NCBI GenBank assembly: GCA_025936115.1
Contig: JAICTZ010000012.1
Coordinates: 62,001 to 126,000 of the forward strand
Source of the DNA: Polyangiaceae bacterium
GTDB taxonomy: Bacteria; Myxococcota_A; Polyangia; Polyangiales; Polyangiaceae
Length of the DNA stretch: 64,000 nucleotides
Reading direction: 5' to 3'
In this document: positions 20,565 to 31,901 of the stretch, one piece after another
Layout: every line of letters begins with the position of its first letter
Numbering within the stretch: position 1 is the first letter of the stretch
The notes under the pieces: generated by a model
What the model saw: the letters and a program-made list of their open reading frames with translations, nothing else
What the model was told of the DNA's origin: nothing
The model's database searches: none
Made by a program: the position numbers and the translations under genes

Positions 20565-22217
20565 TTGGCGGCGTTTTGCGGAAAGCGGTTCGGTGAGTTC
20601 GCTCGCTCGACGGGCGTGCTGCTTGCTGGGTTGAGCTTGGTATTGGCGTGCTCGGGCAGCGAGTTCGAGCTCGTGTCGCCGGGCCGTGCGTCGGTGACGC
20701 GGGCGAGCATGGCGCTCTTGGCGGCTGTTTCGAAGCCGGAGTCGGGCGCCGAGGGGCGCGCGGCGACCGCAATATTGGGCGAGCCGCGCGGTGAGACGGC
20801 ACCGTCCGGCGCGGCGGCGGAGCCGGACACGGACTTGACGGCGCCGAACGCGCCGAACGCGCCGAACGCGCCGGCAGCGGAGCCGAACGTGCCGCGGACG
20901 GAGCCGAACGACGCGCCCGCGGAGCCGTTCACTCCGCGCGAGCTCGTTGCGACTGCGCGTGAAGTCATCGTCTACGCGTCGCCCACGCGCAGCGCGAAGA
21001 AGCTCGGCTACCTGCGGCTCGGCGCGCGTGTGCAGCGCGCAGCGCTGCCGGCAAGCCACGACGGTTGCTCGCAGGGTTTCTACCGTATCGCGCCGGAAGG
21101 CTACGTCTGCGTCGGCAACGCCGCGAGCCTCGACGAGCGGCAGCCGCTCGCCGAGCTCGCGCGCACACGGCCGGATCGCGAAGCGGCTTTGCCGTACGTT
21201 TACGGCCACTCCAAAGCCGAACCGCCGCCGCTCTACACGCACCTGCCGAACGCGGCCGAAACCTTCGCTGCCGAGGGCAAAGCGTCACGCGCGGCCACCG
21301 GGTTCGGCGATCTCGCGCCGCGCCCCTTACCGGCGGCACTCGAGAATGGCGGTTCCTTGCCGATGCCGTTCGGCTACGCGCGCGCGCCGAGCAGCGAGAC
21401 GCCGCGCGCGCTTCCGAACAGCGCCTTCGCGTTGCTCGACAGCGTCGAGCACGACGGGCGCCGCTTCGGCATCACGACGGATCTCGAGCTCGTACCGCTC
21501 GATCGCTTGACGCGCATCGAGCCGAGCGCGTTCCACGGCGTCGTGCTCGACGAGACCACGACGTTGCCGCTCGTCTTCGTCCGTGGGCGCCGTGCGCTGC
21601 TCTTCGCGGGCAGCCCCGAGCACGGCTTTCGTCCCGCGCGCACCCTCGCGTATCGCGAAGCCGTTTCGCTGGGTGCGCGCAGCGCCACCGTCGCCGGCCA
21701 GCGCTTTCTCCAAACGCGAACGGGCGAGTGGCTCGCCGATCTCGAGCTCGTGCGGGTCGAGGCGCACCCGCGACCGCCCGCCGTGCACGGCGATCGCACG
21801 TGGATCCACGTCTCGATCGGCGACCAGACCCTCGTCGCCTACGCGGGCGAGCGGCCCGTTTACGCGACGCTCGTCTCGACCGGCCGCGACGGGCTCGGCG
21901 ATCCGGAGACGACACATTCGACGCCGCGCGGAGAATTCGTGATTCACACGAAGCACGTCTCGGCCACGATGAACGGCGACGAGGTAGGCGACGAGTTCGA
22001 CCTGCGGGACGTGCCGTACGTCGAGTATTTCACGCAAGGCTTCGCCTTTCACGCGGCGTATTGGCACGACGCGTTCGGCACGCCGCACAGCCACGGCTGC
22101 GTGAACCTGTCGCCGCTCGACGCCCGCTGGCTATTTCACTTCACCGAACCAGCCGTACCGCAGGGCTGGCACGGCGCTTTTTCGCGCGAAGGCAGCTACG
22201 TGTCGATCACGCCGTGA
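20565..22217 (+). CDS. L,D-transpeptidase (YkuD domain) lipoprotein
   Basis: A protein of about 550 residues with a lipoprotein signal ending LSLVLAC (Cys about residue 29). A low-complexity Pro/Ala/Glu linker (about 60-130) follows, then a central region with an SH3-like opening (IVYASPTRSAKKLGYLRLGARVQR). The C-terminal YkuD catalytic domain (about 400-550) has WIHVSIGDQTLVAYAGERPVYATLVSTG, STPRGEF and the active-site motif HSHGCVNLSPLDARWLF, with Cys as nucleophile. These enzymes make 3-3 peptidoglycan cross-links or attach proteins to the wall. The TTG at 20565 gives a positively charged leader (KRFGEFAR). A GTG at 20616 is the alternative start. It converges with and overlaps the next gene by 11 bases. 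Confidence 0.88.
   Translation: MAAFCGKRFGEFARSTGVLLAGLSLVLACSGSEFELVSPGRASVTRASMALLAAVSKPESGAEGRAATAILGEPRGETAPSGAAAEPDTDLTAPNAPNAPNAPAAEPNVPRTEPNDAPAEPFTPRELVATAREVIVYASPTRSAKKLGYLRLGARVQRAALPASHDGCSQGFYRIAPEGYVCVGNAASLDERQPLAELARTRPDREAALPYVYGHSKAEPPPLYTHLPNAAETFAAEGKASRAATGFGDLAPRPLPAALENGGSLPMPFGYARAPSSETPRALPNSAFALLDSVEHDGRRFGITTDLELVPLDRLTRIEPSAFHGVVLDETTTLPLVFVRGRRALLFAGSPEHGFRPARTLAYREAVSLGARSATVAGQRFLQTRTGEWLADLELVRVEAHPRPPAVHGDRTWIHVSIGDQTLVAYAGERPVYATLVSTGRDGLGDPETTHSTPRGEFVIHTKHVSATMNGDEVGDEFDLRDVPYVEYFTQGFAFHAAYWHDAFGTPHSHGCVNLSPLDARWLFHFTEPAVPQGWHGAFSREGSYVSITP
20841..20867 (+). repeat. Short tandem repeat, 9 bp x 3
   Basis: Three perfect copies of GCGCCGAAC within the L,D-transpeptidase gene, coding for repeated Ala-Pro-Asn in its linker. 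Such repeats can change in copy number by slippage without shifting the frame. Confidence 0.8.
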
Positions 22218-23781
22218 GCACGCCGCGCGCGCGCTCGACGATGCTCCCTTTGGTTTGCCCACGCAGCCGCTCGAGCGCCCACAGCACGGGGTAGGCGGCG
22301 CCTCCGTCGGGCGTGACGAGCTCGAAGCGCAGCGGTCCGAGCGGCACGTCCGTGTTCTCGCTCCAGCGCGCGCCTCCGTTGAGGCACAAGACTTCGCCCA
22401 CGTAGGCGCCGGTGAGCACGGCCGCACGGCGCGCCCAGCCGCCGCTTGCTTCGGCGACGGAGGCGCTCGTCGCGAGCAAGGCGAGGTACTGATCCACGGC
22501 GCCGAGACTCGCGATCGAGCGATCGAGCGGGACACGCGCGACGCGCGCCGCCCACGTCCCGAGCACGGAGCCGGGCACGACGCGCCCGATCCGGTGAAAC
22601 AGCGCGAACGGCGGCCAAGGCTCCGGGGCCCACGCCGACGGCGGGTCGACGGGTCGCCGCACGTCCGAGCTACTGAGCCCCGGCTTCGTGCCGCCGGCGC
22701 TCAGGTGCACCGCGCGGCCCTCCGTGAGGGCGAGGTGGACGGCGCGCCACGGCTGAAAGCTCTCGCCACGCGGCCGTTCGATCGTCGCCATGTCGGGCTC
22801 CGCGAGTCGGCCGAGCCACCTGCCGCCCGCGGCACGGCGCACGCACTCGCCGACGTAGGCGCTGAGCAAGACCGAAAGCGCGTAGCGCGGCGCGCGCTGT
22901 GGGCGCCGCGCGAAGAGCGCGAGGGCGGCGTCGAGTCTCGCGAGGCTGCCGAGCGAGAGATCGTAGGCAGGGAAATGACAGACAATCGGCGAGCTCGCGA
23001 GGAAGTCCGCGGCTTGCTCCGCGACGGCTTCGAATTCGGGCATGCGCCGCGCGACGAGCTGATCGAGTCGCAGGCCCGCCTGCTTCTCGAGCGCTGAAAG
23101 CGCGGCTTCGACGCGGCCCGAAGCGAGATCGAGCTCGACCGGGTCCCAGATACCTCGCGCCGTGACGCTCGGCGGCTCGGGTTCGAAGCGAGGCAGCTCG
23201 GCCGACGAAGGCTCGCTCGGTGGTGGCGCCGGATCGGTCGGTAACTCCGAGCGGGGCGGCTCGAGCGTACCGAGATCGGCAGTCCTGGGCCGGACGGGCG
23301 CATGCACGACGAGCGGCGGCACGCGCGGCGTTTCGAGCCTGAGGGGACGCCCTGACGGAGGACCTGACACCATGCGCGTCGAGACCGTGAGCGGTGGGCG
23401 CGCCGCGCGAATGGAGCGTGGCATCGGCGCCGGTGCCGGTACCGTCGGCAGGCGCGCTCCGTGCGGATCGAGACTACCCGCGAGCGTGGGCGCGTGCGCG
23501 ATGTCGAGCACCGGCGGCGGCCGAACCGAGCTGAGGTAGCTTTGCGCTTCGGGAAAATCCGGTGCTTCGGCGAGCACGTCTTGCATGCGCTCGGTGATGG
23601 CGACGGCGTCGAGGCGGCCGCGTTGCGCGAGCAGGCGCGTCGTCAGGTAGGCGACGCCGGGTCCGAGCGCACGCACGCCGCCGAGCCCCACGAGCTTGTG
23701 CTGGGCCTCGTCAAAGCGCCCCTCGTTGAGACAGGCTTCCACCTCGCGCAGGCGAGGGTCGTCTAGCGGCCCACCAGCCAT
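22207..23781 (-). CDS. Hypothetical protein with TPR-like N-terminus and an internal repeat
   Basis: A 524-residue soluble protein. Residues 1-70 look helical and TPR-like (REVEACLNEGRFDEAQHKLVGLG). Residues 85-210 are Pro-rich. The C-terminal half contains two similar stretches, LSAYVGECVRRAAGGRWLG and LTGAYVGEVLCLNGGARWSE, each followed by a segment on an input such as RGESFQPW or GPLRFEL. This suggests a duplicated domain. I do not recognise the family. The ATG at 23781 (MAGGPLDDPRLRE) is chosen because the upstream extension has poor coding signal. It lies 226 bases downstream of the kinase gene, in the same direction. Confidence 0.7.
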   Translation of the reverse strand: MAGGPLDDPRLREVEACLNEGRFDEAQHKLVGLGGVRALGPGVAYLTTRLLAQRGRLDAVAITERMQDVLAEAPDFPEAQSYLSSVRPPPVLDIAHAPTLAGSLDPHGARLPTVPAPAPMPRSIRAARPPLTVSTRMVSGPPSGRPLRLETPRVPPLVVHAPVRPRTADLGTLEPPRSELPTDPAPPPSEPSSAELPRFEPEPPSVTARGIWDPVELDLASGRVEAALSALEKQAGLRLDQLVARRMPEFEAVAEQAADFLASSPIVCHFPAYDLSLGSLARLDAALALFARRPQRAPRYALSVLLSAYVGECVRRAAGGRWLGRLAEPDMATIERPRGESFQPWRAVHLALTEGRAVHLSAGGTKPGLSSSDVRRPVDPPSAWAPEPWPPFALFHRIGRVVPGSVLGTWAARVARVPLDRSIASLGAVDQYLALLATSASVAEASGGWARRAAVLTGAYVGEVLCLNGGARWSENTDVPLGPLRFELVTPDGGAAYPVLWALERLRGQTKGSIVERARGVLTA

Positions 23782-24007
23782 GCACGCAATTCGTCGAGTT
23801 CGGCCGTGTTGGCAGGAAAGATCACGATACGGAGCGACTCTGGCGCACGTTAGTACCTCGAACGTATTGTGCTCCGAGAACCGAGTCACGGGTACCTACA
23901 TCGCGCAGCCGATGAAATCGCGAAACGGGGGTGGGCTCAGCAGCACCGATGTAGGCGGCGGTGTGTTGGAAGTCGAGGCGTGCCCGGCAAGCGGCAGGGC
24001 GTGAGCG

Positions 24008-26071
24008 TCAGAGATCGGCCACGCAGCGAAAGCCGATGCCGTAGCTCAACGCCGCGGGATCCTGAGCGTAACGAAATGACGGTCTGAGCCAGCTCGCGAA
24101 GCTGCCGTTCCAGGCGCCGCCGCGGATGACTTTCTTGTCGCCGCTCTCGGGGCCTTTGGGGTTCGTTTGCGCGTCCGGGGTGTAGGGCGCGTACCAATCG
24201 GACACCCACTCCCAAACGTTGCCCGCCACGTCGTACGGGCCGAAGCGCGAGCGGCCGGCTTCGAACTTCCCGACGGGCGCGGTCGTCGCGTACCCGTCGT
24301 CGGCGGGGTAGAGCGCCGGCAAGGTCACGCCGTGCTTTTGGCCCCAAGCCACGCATTCGCTGCCGCACGCGTTCACGTGCTTGGGAGTCGGCGCTTCGTC
24401 ACCCCACGGGTAGATGCGACCGTCGGGACCCCGCGTGGCGTACTCCCATTCGGCTTCGGTCGGCAGGCGTTTGCCTTGCGCCTTGCAGTAGGTCTCCGCC
24501 ATCGCAAAGCTCACACAGTTGATCGGATGGTCGTCGAGCTCCGGTTTGCCGAACGTGCAGAGCGGCGAATAGAGCTTGCGATCCGCGGGCGTGATCTTCG
24601 GCCACTCGACTTCGTTCGAGGGGCGGCGGCATTTGCCGATGTCGGAGCAGGCTTTGTATTCCTTCGCCGTGGTCTCGTAGAGGTCCATGCAGAAGGCGTT
24701 CACGCTCACGTTATGCGACGGCTTTTCGTTGTCGGCGGCGTCCTTGGTGTCGGAGCCCTGGAAGTATTGGCCGGCGGGAATCTTGGCGCTGCGTTCGGGG
24801 CAGGTCGGGTCGGGCGCGGCCGCGCTCGGCGCTGGTGCGGCGCTCGCGAGGACGGGAGCAGGGGCGCTCGCCATCGAGGCGGCCGCAGTCGGCTTTTGGG
24901 GTGCGGGCTTGTTACGCAGCGCGAGCGCGGCCGCCGCGGCGAGGCCGAGCGCAGCCACGCCAGCGACGACGATGCCGATTTTCGACTTGGTTTCGACAGG
25001 GCGCGGGCCGGTCGTGGCGGTGCCGCCCTCGGTCGTGCTCGGGCCCGTGCGCACCGGAGCCGTCGCGGGCGCGAGTTCCGTCGGCGCCGTGTGCGGGCGC
25101 ACCGACGACCGCAAGGTGCGCGCCGCGGTGGTCGTGGTGCCGAGCGCGCGTTCGAAGGCGGCCCAAAATTCGGCGGCGCGCGCGTAGCGTTCCTCGGGTC
25201 GCACCGCGAGCGCCCGCGCGAACACGCTTTCGACGGCGTCCGGCACCGCCAGCCCGAGCGTGCGTGGCGTCGGACGGCGCGTGGGATTGCCCGCCGCAAA
25301 CCCGAGCTGCACGAGGTCGTCGCCCTCGAGGGGCGGCTTGCCCGTGAGCATCTCCACCGCGACGAGCGCGAGCGCGAACACGTCCGTCCACGGTCCGGTC
25401 GCGCCGTAGGAACGGCTGAATTGCTCGGGCGCGCCGTACTGCGGCGTGAAGGACGTGACGCCCATCCCCGTCTTGGCGAGCGCGGCTTTGAGCTCGGTGT
25501 CGTCGCTCATCATCTTGGCGACGCCGAAATCCAAGACTTTGACGGCCGCGGCCGGGTTGCGTTCACCGTTGCCGAGCACGAACAGATTCGGCGGCTTGAT
25601 GTCGCGGTGGGCGATGCCTTTGCCATGGGCTACGTCGAGCGCTGCGGCGACCTGACCGAGTAGGCCGAGCACCTCCGCGAGCGTCCACGGCGCGAGCCCC
25701 GCGCGCTTCTCGCGTTCGAGTAGCTCGTCGAGCGCGAAGCCCTCGAGCCACTCGAGGACCATGTACGGCATCCACTGCCCGTCGAGCGAGGTGTACGTGC
25801 CGACGTCGCGCGCTTGCACGATGGCCGCCGTATGGCTCGAGAGCTCGGTGAGGAGCGCGCCTTCTTGAATGAAGGCTTGCTGAAAATGAGCGCGCTGGTC
25901 GACGGGCGCCGACGAGAGCCCGTTGAAGAACTTGATCGCGACCGGCTTGTTCCAGATCGTGTGGACGGCGCGATAGACGAGCGCGAAGCCGCCTTCACCG
26001 ACGAGCTTCTCGATGCGGTACTTCTCGGCGACGAGCGTGCCGACGATACGAAGGGGATCACGAGCGCTCAT
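24008..26071 (-). CDS. Ser/Thr protein kinase fused to a formylglycine-generating-enzyme-like domain
   Basis: A 687-residue transmembrane kinase. The Hanks-type kinase domain (about 15-290) has a glycine loop GEGGFALVYRA, Lys in PVAIKFF, the catalytic loop IAHRDIKPPNLF (about 157) and DFG in KVLDFGVAK (about 178), so it looks active. A Thr/Pro-rich juxtamembrane linker and one membrane segment (IGIVVAGVAALGLAAAAALAL, about 365) follow. After an Ala/Pro linker there is an extracytoplasmic FGE/SUMF1-like domain (about 425-687: PTEAEWEYATRG, YDVAGNVWEWVSDW, VIRGGAWNGSF, GFRCVADL). The two cysteines that do catalysis in true formylglycine-generating enzymes (in the stretch after RGGxW) are absent, so a sensor or binding role is likelier. 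The start ATG at 26071 lies inside the 3' end of the HvfC-like gene (14-base overlap). Confidence 0.9.
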   Translation of the reverse strand: MSARDPLRIVGTLVAEKYRIEKLVGEGGFALVYRAVHTIWNKPVAIKFFNGLSSAPVDQRAHFQQAFIQEGALLTELSSHTAAIVQARDVGTYTSLDGQWMPYMVLEWLEGFALDELLEREKRAGLAPWTLAEVLGLLGQVAAALDVAHGKGIAHRDIKPPNLFVLGNGERNPAAAVKVLDFGVAKMMSDDTELKAALAKTGMGVTSFTPQYGAPEQFSRSYGATGPWTDVFALALVAVEMLTGKPPLEGDDLVQLGFAAGNPTRRPTPRTLGLAVPDAVESVFARALAVRPEERYARAAEFWAAFERALGTTTTAARTLRSSVRPHTAPTELAPATAPVRTGPSTTEGGTATTGPRPVETKSKIGIVVAGVAALGLAAAAALALRNKPAPQKPTAAASMASAPAPVLASAAPAPSAAAPDPTCPERSAKIPAGQYFQGSDTKDAADNEKPSHNVSVNAFCMDLYETTAKEYKACSDIGKCRRPSNEVEWPKITPADRKLYSPLCTFGKPELDDHPINCVSFAMAETYCKAQGKRLPTEAEWEYATRGPDGRIYPWGDEAPTPKHVNACGSECVAWGQKHGVTLPALYPADDGYATTAPVGKFEAGRSRFGPYDVAGNVWEWVSDWYAPYTPDAQTNPKGPESGDKKVIRGGAWNGSFASWLRPSFRYAQDPAALSYGIGFRCVADL

Positions 26072-26978
26072 GGGGGTCCTTGTTCGAGCCGCGCATGGTC
26101 GAGGTTTCTCGCGCGCCTCGCAAGCCGCGCGCCGACGGGCCGGCGCCGTCCGGGTCCACAATCGCGCCGCGCGCCGGGGGAGCGGCGCCGTCCCCGGCTG
26201 CGGCGCCCAATAACGCTCCGCGTGCCGCGAGGTCCGCGAGGAGGCGCGCCGTGCCCTCGAGGGCCGCGGTGGGATCCGTCGCCGTCTCTGCGCAGGCCGC
26301 GAGCAAGCTCGCCTTGAGCGTCTCCCCGCGCAATAACCGCTCGAGCAGCGCCGCGGCGAGCGGCGAAAGCTCGAGGTAGCGCACGTCGTGCTCCGGATCG
26401 CGGTACACGAAGAGCGCTGTCGGCACTCGCTCGGGCGGCGTGCGATCGGTCTCGTCACTCACGAGCCGGTGCACCGCGAACGCATAGCGCGCGACCCGCG
26501 CCGCCTCCACGAAGCAAAGGCCACGCTCGAGCTCGAGCGGCCCGAGCTCCCGCGCGGTCACGGCCTCGCGTAGCGACGAGACCACGATCTGGAGCGCTTC
26601 GTGCCGCGCGAGGTCGTGAGCCCACGCCGGCACGCGCGCGTCCTCGGCCCAGAGCGGCGCGCAAAAGTCGAGGAGCTCCGTCGTCACGTCGCGCAGGTAA
26701 TGCGTGCGTGGCCCGCGTTCCGCCAAAAAACGTTCGAAATACTCGTCGAATACGCTGCCCAGGCGCGCGAGCGTGCGCGGGATCGCCAGCGCTACGGCCT
26801 CGCGCAACGTGCCCCGCACGAGCCCGCGGTAAACGAGCAGGCGCTCGAAGTCGGCGCGCAAAACGGCCCGATCGTCCGCGGAGAAGTCGTACCGGGCGAG
26901 AAAGGCGTCCGCGTCCCGGGCGTCGACCGCGGGGCCGTGCACGAGCGCGCTCACGGCCGCTTCAAGCGACGACTGCAC
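26058..26978 (-). CDS. HvfC-like (DUF2063-type) partner protein of the MNIO enzyme
   Basis: A 306-residue protein. Its first half has the shape of the DUF2063/HvfC domain: FLARYDF..LRADFERLLVYRGLVRGTLREAVALAIPRTLARLG, EYFERFLAERGPRTHYLRDVTTELLDF. A second helical part follows (LVSDETDRTPPERVPTALFVYRDPEHDVRYLEL...), like the extended partner proteins of some MNIO systems. Partners of this kind bind the precursor and help the MNIO act on it. The GTG at 26978 is chosen because AGGAGG lies six bases upstream and because it overlaps the MNIO stop by 17 bases. A longer frame upstream merely mirrors the MNIO gene. Family assignment is from the conserved pattern and position. Confidence 0.75.
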   Translation of the reverse strand: MQSSLEAAVSALVHGPAVDARDADAFLARYDFSADDRAVLRADFERLLVYRGLVRGTLREAVALAIPRTLARLGSVFDEYFERFLAERGPRTHYLRDVTTELLDFCAPLWAEDARVPAWAHDLARHEALQIVVSSLREAVTARELGPLELERGLCFVEAARVARYAFAVHRLVSDETDRTPPERVPTALFVYRDPEHDVRYLELSPLAAALLERLLRGETLKASLLAACAETATDPTAALEGTARLLADLAARGALLGAAAGDGAAPPARGAIVDPDGAGPSARGLRGARETSTMRGSNKDPHERS

Positions 26979-27849
26979 GTCGTCCCTCCTGCCGCAGACG
27001 GTGCGCTGCGGCCGCTCGGTCGCAGACGGCGCGGAGCGCTCGCACCTCCCCGAGCAGCACGGCGAGCTCGGGCACGTGATTGTCGCGCTCGAGCAAGACG
27101 GGCAGCGGTCCGGTGCGCTCAAGCGTGAAAGCGAGCAGCTCGAGCACCTCGGGGACGACGGGCGCGCCGTGCGTGTCGAGAATGAGGCCCGACGGCGTCC
27201 GCGTGTGCCCGGCCACGTGGAGCTCGACGGCGCGTTCGAGCGGGAACGACTCGAGCACCCTGCGCGCGTCTTGGCCGTGGTTCTGCGCGTTGACGTAGAC
27301 GTTGTTCACGTCCAGCAAGAACCCCGCTCGGGTGTGCTCGAACAGCGTGTGGAGAAAGTCGCCCTCGGAGAGCTCGGCTTTCCCGAGGTGCGCGTAGTAG
27401 GTGACGTTTTCGATCGCGACGGGGCGAGCGAGCGTTTCGGCGAGCTCTTCGAGGCGGGCAGCGACGCGCTTGGCCGTATCGACCGCGAACTTCAACGGCA
27501 AGAGCTCGTGAAAAGCGCGCCCGGAGCCGCTCGTGAAGGCGAGGTGATCGGAGTGCCACGGCGCGTCGAGCCGCGCGACTTCGTTCGCGAGCTCGGCGAT
27601 GTACTCGCGATCCGGCGGGCTCGCCGCGCCGATCGACAGCGTGAGTCCGTGCGTGACGAGCGGGTAATTGCGGCCGATGCGCTCGAGCGCCGCCGGGTAG
27701 TAGCCGCCGCGGCGCATGTAGTTTTCGGGCGAAACCTCGAAGAACGCGACGTCCTCGAGCACGGGTGCCTCGAGCACCTCCTCCAGGAATTCCCAGCGTA
27801 GGCCGAGCCCAACGCCGCTCTTCAACGCGCGTCGGGCTCCGGTCAGCAT
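26962..27849 (-). CDS. MNIO/DUF692 multinuclear non-haem iron oxidase
   Basis: A 295-residue TIM-barrel enzyme of the DUF692 family, relatives of which (MbnB, TglH, HvfB-type) modify cysteine residues of ribosomally made peptides. Motifs: GVGLGLRWEFLEEV, FFEVSPENYMRRGGYY, VTHGLTLSIGA, WHSDHLAFTSG, IENVTYYAH, LLDVNNVYVNAQNHG, ELHVAGHTR, ILDTHGAPV and LLERDNHVPEL. They supply the His, Asp, Glu and Asn residues expected for the iron cluster. The start ATG at 27849 is 19 bases after the small lipoprotein gene. The stop overlaps the partner gene, so precursor, enzyme and partner form one operon. Confidence 0.93.
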   Translation of the reverse strand: MLTGARRALKSGVGLGLRWEFLEEVLEAPVLEDVAFFEVSPENYMRRGGYYPAALERIGRNYPLVTHGLTLSIGAASPPDREYIAELANEVARLDAPWHSDHLAFTSGSGRAFHELLPLKFAVDTAKRVAARLEELAETLARPVAIENVTYYAHLGKAELSEGDFLHTLFEHTRAGFLLDVNNVYVNAQNHGQDARRVLESFPLERAVELHVAGHTRTPSGLILDTHGAPVVPEVLELLAFTLERTGPLPVLLERDNHVPELAVLLGEVRALRAVCDRAAAAHRLRQEGRRAVVA

Positions 27850-27868
27850 GAGCTCACGTTGGGAGCGC

Positions 27869-28216
27869 TCAGCCGCACGTGCCCGGACCACAACCGGCCT
27901 TGGCTCCGGCGGCTTTTTTCTTGCCGGCGGGCTTCGGCGCATCGGCGGCCTTGTCGGTCGCCGCCGGCGTGGCCGGTACGGCGTCCGCCGTCGCGGTGGC
28001 CGGGGCTGCCGGCGTGGATGCAGCCGCGCCCGGACTTGCTGCGGCATCCGCCGCGGCGGGAGCGGGACTGGCGGGCGCGGGGTCCGTGGCGGCTGGAACC
28101 TCCTTGGCGGCGACCGGGCTCTGTGCGGGCTCGGGCGACGCGCTCCCACCACAAGCGGCGAGTCCGAGCGCGGCGAGCGTGCTGGCGAAAGCCTGGAAAC
28201 TGAGCTTCTGATTCAT
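27869..28216 (-). CDS. Small lipoprotein, likely MNIO substrate (C-terminal Cys-x4-Cys)
   Basis: A 115-residue protein with three parts. A lipoprotein signal has lipobox LAAC (Cys22). A long Ala/Pro/Thr linker (about 23-95) leads to a Lys-rich segment (KPAGKKKAAGAK). The tail GCGPGTCG has Cys109 and Cys114, the only cysteines besides the lipid-carrying one. Short CG-rich tails like this are typical substrates of MNIO enzymes. The gene is the first of the MNIO operon, with an excellent ribosome-binding site (GAGGAG, about 6 bases before ATG 28216). Prediction: the tail is oxidised by the MNIO and binds metal (copper is the usual case) while lipid-tethered to a membrane. The residues after Cys22 (Gly-Gly) do not signal inner-membrane retention by the E. 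coli rule. Confidence 0.8.
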   Translation of the reverse strand: MNQKLSFQAFASTLAALGLAACGGSASPEPAQSPVAAKEVPAATDPAPASPAPAAADAAASPGAAASTPAAPATATADAVPATPAATDKAADAPKPAGKKKAAGAKAGCGPGTCG

Positions 28217-28300
28217 CGAACACTCCTCTAAAAAACGAGTAAGGCGCTCTCTCTCGAGCCGGCCGTGGGGAAAATCGCGAGGCGCTACTTTAGCTCCGAC

Positions 28301-29083
28301 TCAACGGGGGACGAAGACGAGTTCGAAGCTGACCTTGGCTTCCGTACCCACATCGTCACCGAGTAACGCGAGATCCTTTGCGACTGGAACACCGTGCTCG
28401 TCGCGAGGCCGAATATCATGGGTATTCAGGCTCACTACGAGCGGCCGGCGGGATCGGATCAGGAGCTCCACCGGCGGCCCCACGGGGTCCGGACCGGGGA
28501 CGAGCGACAAGTTCACCTCTGCCGTGACGGGCACGCGCACGCCGTGCAGGCTGAGCTCGCCACGCACCGTCCATCGGCTCTCGAGCTCGCGCCGGGGCAG
28601 CCGGCGGTCGCCGTTCGGCGCCGCAACGAGGTGCCCCGCGTCGAGCGAGCTGATGAGAAAGTTCGCGTTGGCGGCGAGATCTCGCTTTTCGACGCCCACG
28701 TCGCGGCCGAGCTCGAGCCAGGCGAGGGCCCGCGCCGTGTTGGCGCCATCGGGCTCGCCGCCGGCGCGCGTGATGACGAGCTCGCGCAGATCGAAGGCGA
28801 CGCTGCCCGTCGTGTGCGAGAGATCGTCGAGGTCGACGTCGAGCTCGCCGCGCGGATGCGTGAGCTTGCCGTGGGGGGTCGCGTGGCGAGCGGGCAGCTC
28901 GAACGAAACGTCGCCGCGCTCGAGCCCGTAATGCAAGCGGCGGAGCAACGGCGCCGCCGACGCCGAAGGACCCGCGGATGCGGGCCAGGGCGCCGTGCGA
29001 TCCGGCTTCTTGGGCGCGTGACGGCACTGGACGAGCGCGAGTCCCAGCGCGAGCGCCGCGAGCCTCTGCGTCTTCAATGCCAC
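28301..29083 (-). CDS. YceI-like lipoprotein
   Basis: A 260-residue protein with a lipoprotein signal (LALGLALVQC). The body shows the YceI lipocalin-like pattern: GDVSFELPARHATPHGKL, DVDLDDLSHTTGSVAFDLREL, FLISSLDAGH, ESRWTVRGELSLHGVRVPVTAEV and TEAKVSFELVFV. YceI-type proteins bind isoprenoid or other amphiphilic molecules in the periplasm. The GTG start at 29083 overlaps the stop of the barrel gene by 10 bases. It ends 84 bases before the MNIO precursor gene in the same direction, so read-through into that operon is possible. Confidence 0.75.
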   Translation of the reverse strand: MALKTQRLAALALGLALVQCRHAPKKPDRTAPWPASAGPSASAAPLLRRLHYGLERGDVSFELPARHATPHGKLTHPRGELDVDLDDLSHTTGSVAFDLRELVITRAGGEPDGANTARALAWLELGRDVGVEKRDLAANANFLISSLDAGHLVAAPNGDRRLPRRELESRWTVRGELSLHGVRVPVTAEVNLSLVPGPDPVGPPVELLIRSRRPLVVSLNTHDIRPRDEHGVPVAKDLALLGDDVGTEAKVSFELVFVPR

Positions 29084-30546
29084 ACTCCGAACGTGATGCC
29101 CCAGCCGAGGTAATCGCGCGCAACGTCGAGCGAGCCGCCGAGCCAAAACCAATTTCCCTCGGGAAACGTGCCGAACACGTCCCAGGGCAGCAGGCGCAAG
29201 CTGCCGCCGAGCGTCGCGTGGGTGCGCCCGCCGTCCTCGTTCGCCCGAAAGCGCGTCGGCTCGTAGTAAATGCCGCCGCGCATCTGCAGCCAGTTCGGGA
29301 TCGGTTCGATTTCGAGCCCGAGCCGCGGCGACAAGGTGATCTGCTCGCCCGAACGCTGCCATTCGCGCTTCAGGAAGCCTTCGATCCCGACTCCGTTGTG
29401 CACGGCGCCCGTCATCAGCATCGAGCTCATCAGTAACACGTGGAAGCGCGGCAGATCGTGGCTCTGCTGGCGCAGCGTGCGCGCCACGTCGCGTTCGGCG
29501 CGCTCGAGCTCCGCGCGATCGAGCGTCGCTTCGGCCTCGTCTTGGGCTCGCAAAATCCGCGCGAGCTCCGTAACGTCGCGGCCCTCGGCGCGGGCGCGCG
29601 CGAGCGCCTCGCGCGTTCTGCGTTCGCGCTCGCGCGCTTGCCACTCGAGGTAACGCCGCTTGTGCGCGAGGAGCTCGCTCGGACTCACCCAAGGCGGATT
29701 GAGCGGCCGGCTGCCGAGTTGCACCGCGGTTCCGAGGTTCAAGTCCCACGGCAGCGTGATGTGCGAGGGCAAGTAGAGCTCGTCGGGCGTGCCCTGGTAC
29801 AGGATTTTGCCTTGCGCGTTCGCGGATACGGTCGAACGAAAGGCGCCGCCGAGCCGAATGCGCTCGCTGTTCGGGCGCCAGATGAAGCCGAGCTCGGCGC
29901 CCACGCCGCGCGTGTCGAGCGAGTTGATGCCGTTACTCAAGAAGGTCGCGCGCGTGCTCACGTCGAGCGCCACGACGCGCGCACCCGTGCCGATCACGAG
30001 CTGGTCGTCGGCAAATGCGTAGGCTGCGAGCAGATGCGTGACCATGATCTGGCTCGTGAGCGAGGTGACCGTGGGTTCGGCGCTGCGGCGCAAGCTGTAC
30101 TGCTGGAGATCGATCGTCACGCCGAAGCCCAGGCGGTCGATTTGCAGGTTGAAGGCGCCGTTCAGAAAGACGTAGAGGTTGTTGCCGGCGACGACCTTGG
30201 TTTTGCTGCCCGAGTTGAAGAAGTCGCCCGAGCGCCCGAGGCCGCCGGGAAAGACGAGCCCCGCGCCGATGTCGTAATCCACGTCCGTGAACGAGTAGGT
30301 CGTGCGGACGGCCGGCGAGGCGGGGTTCTGGCTGTCGCCATCGACGCCGTCGGCCATCGCGACGAAAGCGCCCGCAAGCCCCACGACGCGGTTGCTCGCG
30401 AGGACGGGCCCTTGCGTCAAATCGATGGCATAGTCGTTGGTTTTTATGCGCGGCGCCGTCTGGGCGCGGGCCTCTAGAGCGAGCGCGAGGCAGAGCCCGA
30501 GACATTTCGTCCAGGTCCGGCCGAGGCGCATGCGCGCGCCTACCAT
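29074..30546 (-). CDS. FadL/OmpP1-like outer-membrane protein with a coiled-coil insert
   Basis: A 490-residue protein with a signal peptide ending LEARAQ. A beta-barrel follows that resembles the FadL/TodX family: VGLAGAFVAMADGVDGDSQNPASPAVRTTYSFTDVDYDIGAGLVFP near the N-terminus matches the family opening (AGAFVA..NPA). A charged, helical insert of about 65 residues (about 300-365, rich in Arg, Glu, Ala: ARERERRTREALARARAEG, LDRAELERAERDVARTLRQ) interrupts the barrel and probably forms a coiled coil. The chain ends in a strand finishing FGVWH. FadL-type channels import hydrophobic molecules. The start is ATG 30546, or ATG 30531. Confidence 0.75.
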   Translation of the reverse strand: MVGARMRLGRTWTKCLGLCLALALEARAQTAPRIKTNDYAIDLTQGPVLASNRVVGLAGAFVAMADGVDGDSQNPASPAVRTTYSFTDVDYDIGAGLVFPGGLGRSGDFFNSGSKTKVVAGNNLYVFLNGAFNLQIDRLGFGVTIDLQQYSLRRSAEPTVTSLTSQIMVTHLLAAYAFADDQLVIGTGARVVALDVSTRATFLSNGINSLDTRGVGAELGFIWRPNSERIRLGGAFRSTVSANAQGKILYQGTPDELYLPSHITLPWDLNLGTAVQLGSRPLNPPWVSPSELLAHKRRYLEWQARERERRTREALARARAEGRDVTELARILRAQDEAEATLDRAELERAERDVARTLRQQSHDLPRFHVLLMSSMLMTGAVHNGVGIEGFLKREWQRSGEQITLSPRLGLEIEPIPNWLQMRGGIYYEPTRFRANEDGGRTHATLGGSLRLLPWDVFGTFPEGNWFWLGGSLDVARDYLGWGITFGVWH

Positions 30547-30575
30547 AGCCTCGATCCCACGAGTATAGTGCGCGC

Positions 30576-31901
30576 GTGCCCTACCGTGCCGAGTTCCGCT
30601 GCTTCAATGGCTGCGAGGGATCGTATGCCGTCACCGAGCCCATGTACCGCTGTCCGAAATGCGACGGCCTGCTCCAGGTCGTCCATGACGTGGAAGCGCT
30701 CGCTGATCGCAGCGGCCCCGTGTGGATGAAGCTTTTCGACGAGCGCTATCGGCAAAATTCCTGGCCGTACGGCTCGGGCGTGTGGGGCAAGCGCGAATGG
30801 GTCATGCCACAAGTGCCCGACGAGACCATCGTCTCGATGTACGAGGGCGGCACGAACCTGTTCTGGGCCGAGCGTTACGGCAAGCAGATCGGCCTCGACG
30901 ATTTGTGGGTGAAGCTCTGCGGCAACAGCCACAGCGGCTCGTTCAAAGATCTCGGCATGACCGTGCTCGTGAGCGTCGTGCGCATGGCCATTCAGCAGGG
31001 CCTGAAGGTAAAAGCCATCGCCTGCGCTTCGACGGGGGACACGAGCGCGTCACTCGCTGCCTACGGCGCCGCCGCCGGGCTGCCGGTCGTCGTGCTCTTG
31101 CCCTACGGCAAGATCTCGACGGCCCAGCTCGTGCAGCCGCTCGCTCACGGCGCGTTGGTGCTCGGCCTCGACACCGATTTCGACGGCTGCATGGCGATCG
31201 TGCAGCGCCTCGCGGCCGAGGGCATCGTGTACCTCGCCAACTCGATGAACCCCTTGCGCATCGAGGGGCAAAAGACGGTCGCGATCGAGATCGTCCAGCA
31301 GTTCGACTGGCAAATCCCCGACTGGGTGATCTTGCCGAGCGGCAACCTGGGCAACGCCTCGGCGCTCTACGCCGGCTTCAAGCTCCTGAAGGACCTCGGC
31401 ATCATCGCGCGCTATCCGCGGCTCGTCGTCGCGCAAGCCGAGAACGCCAACCCGCTCTACCGCGCCTGGAGCGCCGGCAAGCGCACCGTTGACCCCATCG
31501 TCGCGCGGCCGACGCTCGCGAGCGCGATCCAAATCGGCAACCCCGTGAGCGCTCCGCGGGCCGTGCAGGCGCTCGAGGCCATGAACGGCATCGTCGAACA
31601 AGCGAGCGAGCAGGAGCTCTGCGACGCCGCCGCGCGCGCCGATCGCACGGGCATGTACACCTGCCCGCACACGGCCGTCGGCCTCGCCGTGCTGCAGAAG
31701 CTCGTCGAGCGCGGCACGATTCAACGCGGCGAGCGCGTCGTCAGCGTCTCGACGGCCGCGGGGCTCAAGTTCACCGAATTCAAGGTGCGCTACCACGAGT
31801 CGGAGATCGAGGGCGTACGTGCCGATCTCGCGAACCCGCCGGTGAAGCTCAAGCCGGACTACGGCAGCGTCGTGGACGCGATCGCCAAACGCTTCTCGTG
31901 A
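30576..31901 (+). CDS. thrC: Threonine synthase
   Basis: A 441-residue PLP enzyme that turns O-phosphohomoserine into threonine. The PLP lysine lies in [13 protein letters not shown]. The phosphate/glycine loop [21 protein letters not shown] and [15 protein letters not shown] are family hallmarks. The N-terminus adds a zinc-ribbon-like part (FRCFNGC..YRCPKC), seen in one subgroup of these enzymes. The GTG start at 30576 is divergent from the barrel gene, with 29 bases between them. Confidence 0.93.

Follow-up and report, generated by a model that had tools for sequence, protein, structure and literature searches.

Judged from its genes, the operon described here probably makes a lipid-anchored relative of the captophorin RiPPs, a lipoprotein whose two tail cysteines would be oxidised and which would serve as a membrane-bound copper buffer. 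The operon lies within the 64,000-nucleotide stretch of Polyangiaceae DNA that was analysed as a whole (hereafter the window), and its features are collected in Table 1. It is sound to read the lipoprotein as a peptide that an MNIO modifies and a lipid anchors, and the transmembrane kinase and YceI-fold protein encoded beside it probably work with it.

Results

Operon layout and gene families

The original prediction described three adjoining leftward genes, for a lipoprotein, an MNIO and an HvfC-like partner, linked by short gaps or overlaps, and this layout is what we find: the MNIO gene starts 19 nt after the lipoprotein stop, and the HvfC-like gene overlaps the MNIO end by 17 nt. The predicted enzyme identities also hold, since the MNIO matches PF05114 (E 2e-85; 286.5 bits, cut-off 25) and the partner matches NGO1945_C (E 4e-17; 62.9 vs 27 bits) and DUF2063 (E 1e-6; 29.4 vs 27.2 bits), all above the curated cut-offs. 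Past the HvfC-like gene the operon runs on, through a 14-nt overlap with the HvfC-like stop, into a kinase gene, a continuation absent from the original prediction. The type of gene found downstream of the kinase was seen next to the operon only in near relatives. A promoter scan of the locus found none, and the search for terminator-like sites gave a single weak one, inside the MNIO gene, against an average of 3.7 after shuffling.

Table 1 Features of the operon and its surroundings, in window coordinates
Feature	Position	Strand	Remarks
Gene of unknown function, downstream of kinase	22207..23889	-	No Pfam match
Ser/Thr kinase, hydrophobic (TM-like) stretch, FGE-like ectodomain	24008..26071	-	687 aa
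HvfC/PME-type 1 partner (DUF2063 + NGO1945_C/RRE-like domain)	26058..26978	-	GTG start after GGAGGG, 306 aa
MNIO (DUF692, PF05114)	26962..27849	-	ATG start, 295 aa
Precursor lipoprotein gene	27869..28216	-	115 aa, ATG start, GAGGAG at 28223-28228
C-terminal CGPGTCG, Cys109 and Cys114, predicted MNIO sites	27872..27892	-	Alignment, pattern search
Low-complexity Ala/Pro linker, Lys-rich at end	27893..28150	-	86 residues
PVAAKEVPAA segment just past lipobox	28088..28117	-	Conserved in many close relatives
Signal peptide and lipobox LAAC, predicted lipidated Cys22 then Gly-Gly	28151..28216	-	Read from sequence
YceI-fold protein, possible lipoprotein	28301..29083	-	Upstream of lipoprotein; GTG start at 29083 inferred

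For HvfC as an NCBIfam equivalog the partner falls short of the cut-off (105 vs 142), and a PDB sequence search with it returned nothing at E 0.01. Its AlphaFold model (pLDDT 88) has 3dee and TglI (8hci/8hi7) as best PDB fold matches, so that in fold the protein resembles NGO1945 and TglI. The YceI-fold protein, searched as the frame 28301-29113, comes just below the Pfam cut-off; its AlphaFold model (pLDDT 81) has PDB fold matches, and a gene of this type recurs beside the relatives' loci (23 frames, 19 distinct sequences).

The precursor lipoprotein

The 115-residue lipoprotein had been described as carrying a lipobox, a linker of about 70 Ala/Pro residues, a Lys-rich stretch and a GCGPGTCG tail. 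The lipobox (LAAC, behind a signal peptide) and the tail are as predicted; the linker is indeed rich in Ala and Pro (58% together) but runs for 86 residues up to Cys109. No Pfam family was matched. The reading frame is under purifying selection (dN 0.18, dS 1.38 against the nearest relative, L033).

For alignment, we took the window and 24 relatives from as many genomes, all 25 rows having been chosen for a lipobox and paired cysteines. The relatives were drawn from a set of 27 loci, L033-L059, omitting L042, whose lipobox appears only with a late start and whose tail is CGEDNCG, L045, which gave no candidate, and L052, which has repeats but lacks a terminal pair. Cys22, Cys109, Gly110 and Cys114 are invariant in all 25 rows, and the linker between them is variable in sequence and in length (40-143 residues, median 89). 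A PVxAxEV-like segment was called by script in 13 rows, among them 11 of the first 14; the call failed in L044, L048, L049, L051, L053 and L055-L059, and in L040 and L041 only the Pro differs, as judged by alignment. It is possible that this segment, PVAAKEVPAA in the window, acts as a recognition element for the partner protein. The suggestion of a single site rather than a multi-repeat peptide applies to the window and 13 other precursors, which have the terminal pair only, but not to the remaining 11, which carry one to five further cysteines; the single-site form is thus one end of a continuum.

Conservation beside the MNIO gene

The tail pattern was found at 14 places in 39 genomes, the window's own included, as compared to 15 places for a reversed control, and its rarity was therefore rejected as evidence in itself. 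Its genomic place, unlike the pattern, is not due to chance: 8 of the 14 places sit just upstream of an MNIO, a count that refers to the real pattern alone, and in its own 8-Mb genome the pattern occurs once, at the lipoprotein gene. The original prediction had been staked on conservation of the lipoprotein beside the MNIO gene, and there it is conserved, a Cys-pair lipoprotein adjoining the best MNIO in 24 of the 27 relatives examined.

This conservation bears on an alternative that we consider very improbable, namely that the two genes are conserved neighbours only, with an unmodified envelope lipoprotein whose Cys pair is a disulfide and an MNIO that acts elsewhere. While Cys-x4-Cys could form a disulfide, the recurrence beside the best MNIO argues against this reading, as do the multi-Cys variants, which fit MNIO substrates.

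In 39 of 47 Myxococcota loci, among which we tallied MAGs titled 'Proteobacteria' or 'delta', a crude regular expression, rather than SignalP, recognised a lipobox. Four lipobox negatives within the phylum trace to the procedure, L121 and L161 having lipobox-like sequences that were missed and L100 and L115 an unrelated frame that was taken, and of the seven positives outside it, six belong to Holophagaceae or Geothrix and have an internal start that is doubtful. Across these relatives the tails grade from CGEGKC (Bacteroidota, one gammaproteobacterium) through CGKGSC (Geothrix) to the CGAGTC/CGEGSC lipoproteins of Myxococcota, and because of this gradation we place the window tail in the same series. 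Counts from the 27-locus set and from a larger set of 80 loci are not independent, since seven loci are common to both (L092=L034, L094=L038, L098=L039, L099=L035, L102=L045, L120=L051 and L123=L046).

Relation to published MNIO systems

The operon had been put forward as an undescribed system, which was not borne out: captophorins (PMC12668002), DAG-RiPPs and a predicted CxxxxC lipoprotein cluster (PMC12636315) are on record. Captophorins are 5-thiooxazole copper peptides, with fontiphorin, oxazolin and gonophorin in their EGKCG (Lys-Cys) group (PMC12668002). The window resembles this group in that precursor, MNIO and PME1 genes lie together, the precursor is predicted to be exported, and its Cys units are repeated as a C-x4-C pair with Gly after each Cys. 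It differs in having Thr for Lys before the second Cys, so that the units read KAGCG and PGTCG instead of the Lys-Cys EGKCG motif, and Pro where the group has Glu (relatives have Ala, Glu or Ser there), as well as in the one unit pair at the extreme C terminus, the lipoprotein signal and the Trp/Asn gate residues of the enzyme. According to PMC12668002, the two-unit EGKCGEGKCG was the shorter of two lengths tried that FonBC modified, and this pair of proteins tolerated Thr at position 3, preferred a small residue after Cys and did not process substrates with Pro in both units, whatever the Pro position.

A predicted lipobox combined with a Cys motif for an MNIO is shared with the DAG-RiPPs NedA and DybA, which are modified, and with 'cluster X', for which this is predicted. 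In the window the LAAC is present by sequence and the MNIO adjoins, with the lipoprotein as its putative substrate. NedA, the EGKCG lipoprotein produced together with NedBC, was recovered from E. coli in triacylated form and with a change of -12 Da for its three motifs (PMC12636315), whereas the window precursor has one terminal Cys pair. Cluster X, predicted in the same paper as a lipoprotein cluster with a conserved CxxxxC, has both lipobox and CxxxxC in common with the window lipoprotein, a likeness of descriptions rather than of sequences. Antoine et al. 2025 (PMC12452194) reported a CxxxxC precursor family and lipoprotein bufferins. With the former the window shares, again by description and not by profile, a signal peptide, CxxxxC and a PME-type 1 partner, but 54% of those clusters have Lactamase_B_2 and their core includes DoxX, neither of which was recognised among the eight genes scanned at the window locus (22207 to 31901); nor was a metal-transport gene or a metal regulator. 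The lipoprotein has no DUF2282, and with two tail cysteines plus that of the lipobox, not six, it differs from the bufferins Buf1 and Buf2.

Against the NCBIfam models for BufB and HvfB, the enzyme itself does not reach the cut-offs. Ten of its residues (His67, His102, His114, Glu147, Asp180, Asn182, His211, Asp225, His227 and Glu254), which we take to be candidate iron-site ligands, are invariant in all 28 MNIOs of an alignment that omits L045 and L056. 3bww can be aligned with it over most of its length, and mapped through that alignment by eye, by way of 3bww rather than FonB, the gate residues fall at Arg18-Trp19 and Asp256-Asn257. In MNIOs of the EGKCG (Lys-Cys) group the gates are Arg-Arg and Asp-Phe (PMC12668002), and because of this difference, as mapped here, the product could differ as well. 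One could speculate that the Cys pair receives another modification, such as an oxazolone-thioamide, a cross-link or a macrocycle as in ChrH products. The distinct gate residues, the Pro inside the motif and the varied chemistry that MNIOs catalyse (PMC12452194) speak for this possibility, which we nonetheless regard as quite improbable, given that all characterised MNIO-PME1 cases make 5-thiooxazole, according to the authors of PMC12668002, and that the ChrH model reaches just 56 of 600 bits on this MNIO, far under its cut-off.

A membrane kinase linked to the operon

The kinase carries an FGE-sulfatase domain (PF03781, E 2e-52), and an FGE-sulfatase domain is likewise tied to an MNIO system in the Buf1/cytochrome c/FGE-sulfatase fusions listed in PMC12452194. 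All 27 full-length kinase relatives (23 distinct sequences) have HRD and DFG motifs, and all 27 lack the FGE catalytic Cys pair, the stretch from the last RGG to GFRC being free of Cys; the same is true of the window kinase. The catalytic Cys positions were placed by alignment to human SUMF1. In contrast to FGE/SUMF1-fold domains, the domain here sits on a transmembrane kinase without the catalytic pair, whose absence led us to reject copper-dependent FGE activity of the ectodomain.

Among 55 genomes bearing the ectodomain, it is linked to an MNIO in 25 (12 genera) and has no listed MNIO inside 10 kb, and so is scored as not linked, in 24, where the two lie on different contigs (19 genomes) or on the same contig at 13 kb to 7.3 Mb (5 genomes). 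Six are undecided, two having no MNIO at threshold and four only weak MNIO matches. Compared to this wider survey, our near sample, with 16 of 21 genomes linked (own included), overstated the link. In the 80-locus set the kinase is linked in 15 loci, those with only a distant kinase (29-35% identity) not being tallied as linked; in the 15 linked loci of the 27-locus set it lies downstream in 12, upstream in L050 and L054, and divergent in L059.

These observations raise the possibility, doubtful as we find it, that the lipoprotein is a sensor ligand and not a buffer, the pseudo-FGE ectodomain reading whether its tail is copper-loaded, oxidised or unmodified and the kinase signalling this to the cytoplasm. 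Such a role would fit the overlap of the kinase start with the partner gene, which in L033 becomes one frame covering both, the retained HRD and DFG motifs beside a lost Cys pair, and the repeated linkage to MNIO loci, in 15 of the 27-locus set as against only 6, all near relatives, for a threonine-synthase-like neighbour gene; a single stoichiometric site would also suit a signal better than bulk storage. It is at odds with the 24 unlinked genomes, with the 71-74% identical copy found 164 kb to 7.3 Mb away in three single-contig genomes, with the four changes that the linked state needs on a tree (82 of 83 rows, one being too short), and with distant Myxococcota that have the lipoprotein and MNIO without a kinase nearby. 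An unlikely elaboration is a RiPP envelope sensor, in which the lipoprotein with its one thiooxazole-copper site would be the ligand of the co-encoded kinase and the YceI-fold protein an accessory, the ectodomain, with its copper-enzyme fold, reading the metal or oxidation state of the tail.

None of the words kinase, YceI and polyisoprenoid occurs in the main text of PMC12452194, PMC12636315 or PMC12668002, and in the wider open-licence PMC literature none of the matches listed reported a kinase or YceI gene in an MNIO system. Earlier publications cover the peptide class and its anchoring by lipid; the kinase and YceI-type partners are the new part.

Discussion

For the preferred reading, a membrane-bound copper buffer, we propose that the HvfC-like protein would bind the precursor near its N terminus in the cytoplasm and bring the C-terminal CGPGTCG to the MNIO, which would oxidise both cysteines to 5-thiooxazole groups (predicted -4 Da each), a step that would come before, or compete with, Sec export. 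The lipoprotein pathway would put diacylglycerol on Cys22. Gly rather than Asp after the lipobox Cys leads to outer-membrane sorting, and since Gly follows Cys22, onward transfer to the outer membrane is probable. The disordered Ala/Pro/Lys tether would then present, in the periplasm, a single Cu(I) site with two ligands.

This proposal draws on the C-x4-C spacing, which is that of EGKCGEGKCG, and on the family matches of MNIO and partner, together with the invariant candidate iron-site residues, the partner's fold, the graded series of tails, the frequent lipobox in Myxococcota and the precedent of NedA. Several points count against it: the gate residues differ from those of EGKCG enzymes, the MNIO falls short of the BufB and HvfB cut-offs, none of the eight genes from 22207 to 31901 ties the system directly to copper, and Pro111 is position 1 of the second unit, in view of the rejection by FonBC of substrates with Pro in both units. 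This Pro occurs in just 3 of the 25 rows (those of L033, L050 and the window), so that either the second Cys may go without modification or the enzyme may have become adapted to it.

Taken over the family, the data suggest that in Myxococcota this branch of MNIO peptides is as a rule lipid-anchored, and not just exceptionally so, and that many Polyangiaceae have come down to the minimal pair of Cys units. They also suggest that where the substrate letters next to the Cys differ, the gate residues tend to differ too, which opens specificity to testing. The repeated linkage with a membrane kinase offers a lead, namely that a signalling protein may read such a product, and the RiPP envelope sensor, if true, would connect the post-translational chemistry of peptides with signalling by kinases.

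Operon structure and conservation of the lipoprotein

The original prediction of three consecutive genes, for a lipoprotein, an MNIO (DUF692) enzyme and an HvfC-type partner, was right in its coordinates and description, and the operon extends past the partner gene into a kinase gene.

Features of the operon and its upstream neighbors (window coordinates)
Feature	Position	Strand	Remark
Kinase gene	24008-26071		start codon overlaps partner stop by 14 nt
HvfC-type partner gene	26058-26978	minus	17-nt overlap with MNIO gene
MNIO gene	26962-27849	minus	19-nt gap after lipoprotein gene
Precursor lipoprotein gene	27869-28216	minus	115 residues
PVxAxEVPAA segment	28088-28117		shortly after lipobox
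YceI-fold protein gene	28301 to about 29083		upstream of lipoprotein gene
490-residue protein	29074-30546		overlaps YceI-like gene

Since the lipoprotein matched no Pfam family, it was compared with that of the nearest relative (locus L033), to which it is 74% identical; over the 115 codons dN is 0.18 and dS 1.38, and of the shifted frames one contains a stop and the other gives the reverse dN/dS ratio. An MNIO was found at E 1e-10 in 33 of 39 genomes, the window's own included, and of 144 genomes taken from the order, 120 matched the family profile at E 1e-40. One locus was read in each of 27 relatives, over as much as 18 kb about its best MNIO; 24 of these loci contributed to the alignment a lipoprotein whose C-x4-C is terminal or subterminal. 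The lipoprotein is thus conserved beside the MNIO, a point on which the original prediction had been made to depend.

We aligned the window precursor with these 24 (25 genomes), a lipobox together with a Cys pair being the criterion for taking a row. Cys109, Gly110, Cys114 and the Cys of the lipobox are the same in all 25, and Gly112 nearly so; the criterion itself accounts in part for the constancy of the Cys, and far less for that of the Gly. The linker shows little sequence conservation (mean column identity over the whole precursor alignment is 27%), with a median length of 89 and a range of 40-143. Within this otherwise variable linker, the PVxAxEVPAA segment recurs in many Polyangiaceae precursors and is a candidate recognition element.

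The tail as one end of a graded family

A coded pattern for a terminal CGxGxCG, with Thr, Ser and the like before the Cys, occurs at 14 places in the 39 genomes against 15 for the reversed control, and the idea that the pattern by itself exceeds chance was rejected. By position the tail is beyond chance: eight of the 14 places lie directly before an MNIO, the MNIOs having been found independently, and the single place in the window's own genome is the lipoprotein gene. A single tethered site had been proposed in contrast to soluble repeats. This predicted layout fits the window gene, but the gene occupies one end of a graded family, in which 14 of the 25 aligned precursors have the terminal pair alone and one to five further Cys occur in 11.

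The best 80 loci among the matches listed (here the named set, numbered from L092; seven contigs are shared with the 27 loci) include Sorangium, Polyangium, Minicystis, Labilithrix, Nannocystis, Myxococcus and Archangium and, outside Myxococcota, among others Geothrix and relatives, Obscuribacterales and Bacteroidota. By a crude rule, the precursor in these best 80 carries a lipobox at 39 of 47 Myxococcota loci (four without, two with no candidate, two at contig edges) and lacks one at 24 of 33 others (seven with, one with no candidate, one at an edge), six of those seven being doubtful Holophagaceae or Geothrix starts. Motifs run from CGEGKC in Bacteroidota and CGKGSC in Geothrix to repeated SCG units in Nannocystis and CGEGSC, CGAGSC or CGAGTC in other Myxococcota.

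In Nannocystaceae and relatives (L103, L104, L108, L112, L114, L124), lipoprotein precursors of repeated EGSCGG/DGSCGA-like units, which lack the C-x4-C spacing, adjoin close MNIO relatives. The Bacteroidota precursors L136, L140, L144, L146, L152, L154 and L155 share an LGSGxE(V/L)R segment, perhaps a recognition element, ahead of EGKCG-like repeats. The window's own genome has two further MNIO loci, L060:9352-9684 and L061 (contigs 35 and 26); the repeats are of CKGKGGCK type in one precursor, by sequence also a lipoprotein (lipobox ITAC), and of CKGQNACKGQGGCK in the other, which has no lipobox.

The enzyme, its partner and the gate residues

The MNIO scores 286.5 bits against PF05114 and in alignment retains the motifs around the candidate metal site. 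Its scores fall under the NCBIfam cut-offs for BufB (260.5 against 310) and HvfB (248.7 against 360), and it is thus called related to both and an equivalog of neither. In the partner, Pfam recognizes DUF2063 and NGO1945_C domains; the best matches of its AlphaFold model (pLDDT 88), and the only three to reach E 0.001, are NGO1945 (3dee) and TglI (8hci, 8hi7).

According to PMC12668002, Arg15, Arg16 and Phe250 of the captophorin enzyme FonB adjoin the substrate's Cys unit, whereas the window MNIO has Arg-Trp and Asp-Asn at the matching gate positions, which were mapped by eye via 3bww (L133 did not align there). Arg-Trp recurs in its nine clade mates of the MNIO tree, together with Asp-Asn in eight and Asp-His in one; the Myxococcus and Archangium enzymes have Arg-Arg and Asp-Gln, and the two others of the window's genome, whose precursors carry CKG motifs, Arg-Val/Asp-Asp and Arg-Thr/Asp-Ala. 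Asp-Phe is found in the nine Bacteroidota MNIOs, the majority of them with EGKCG-like substrates, where the other pair is Arg-Arg, Arg-Lys or, in L158, whose precursor is cut off by the contig end, Arg-Leu. Phe at the gate goes with Lys often but not always, because CGEGKC occurs with Asp-Asn (L164), CGAGKC with Asp-Gln (L171), and last motifs with Thr before Cys with Asp-Phe (L144, L155, L166).

A kinase and a YceI-fold protein near the MNIO

The kinase gene encodes a kinase domain (E 4e-32) and an FGE-sulfatase domain (E 2e-52), here the ectodomain, with a hydrophobic stretch between. Since all 27 full-length relatives (23 distinct sequences) keep the HRD and DFG motifs, the kinase is likely to be active. 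Copper-dependent FGE activity of the ectodomain is unlikely, because none of the 27 has a Cys between the last RGG and GFRC, the interval that holds the catalytic Cys pair in human SUMF1.

The kinase is linked at 15 of the 27 loci and at 15 of the best 80 among the matches listed, which overlap them; of the latter, L095 and L096 show the kinase part only, and L111 the ectodomain only, before contig ends. Among near genomes with the ectodomain 16 of 21 show linkage, but in a wider sample only 25 of 55 such genomes do (12 genera). In the remaining 30, ectodomain and MNIO lie on different contigs (19) or 13 kb to 7.3 Mb apart on one contig (five), MNIO matches are only very weak (four), or no MNIO reaches threshold (two). 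The link is not obligate, since in three genomes assembled as a single contig a copy with 71-74% identity lies 164 kb to 7.3 Mb away.

Could the link simply reflect an inherited neighborhood? It exceeds one, because the kinase stands beside the MNIO in 12 genera and, at the loci read, three orders, whereas the threonine-synthase-like gene next door was seen at no more than 6 of the 27 loci, each from a near relative. At the loci read the kinase is downstream at 12, upstream at L050, L054 and L111 (there the ectodomain at a contig end), and divergent at L059. In the MNIO tree (82 rows) the window falls within a ten-row clade that is entirely kinase-linked (99/97), and over the whole tree the linked state requires 4 changes against 14.9 in shuffles. 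In L033, a single draft genome, an open frame of 980 codons (L033:5131-8070) runs through partner and kinase alike, which may reflect a natural gene fusion or an error of assembly.

The YceI-like protein falls just under its Pfam cut-off (21.5 against 23.7). Sixteen PDB entries match its model (pLDDT 81) at E 0.001 or better, among them 2x34, 5ixh, 7bwl, 3q34 and 1y0g, comprising YceI proteins, polyisoprenoid-binding domains, BcnA/BcnB and an 'antibiotic sequester', which we take to be one family. Relatives occur at 23 of 107 loci scanned (19 distinct), with no close kinase nearby at L046, L107, L123, L130 and L135 (L046 and L123 share a contig). The protein repeatedly lies upstream of the precursor, in the window and at L092-L094, L096-L098, L100, L107, L123, L126, L130 and L135. 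The adjoining 490-residue protein, kept in near relatives, matches no Pfam family above cut-off and gives the impression of an outer-membrane protein.

Discussion

Chen et al. (PMC12636315) name DAG-RiPPs, report NedA as triacylated and -12 Da, and also predict a cluster of lipoproteins that share a conserved CxxxxC motif. The CxxxxC family of Antoine et al. (PMC12452194) comprises 76 proteins, all from Pseudomonadati, and the same authors state that about 16% of Buf2 bufferins are predicted to be lipoproteins. Gadgil et al. (PMC12668002) group the products of MNIO-PME1 systems together under the name of 5-thiooxazole captophorins. Neither kinase nor YceI occurs as a word in these three main texts, and among the matches listed from the wider literature no MNIO system with either gene is reported. 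The kinase link would come as a surprise to specialists, and it is a purely statistical association.

Weak points of a captophorin account include the unusual gate residues, and Pro111, because FonBC did not accept substrates that carried Pro in both units together (PMC12668002). With these weighed, the best-supported account, which we hold to be reasonably probable, is that the lipoprotein would be a lipid-anchored captophorin with one predicted two-Cys copper site.
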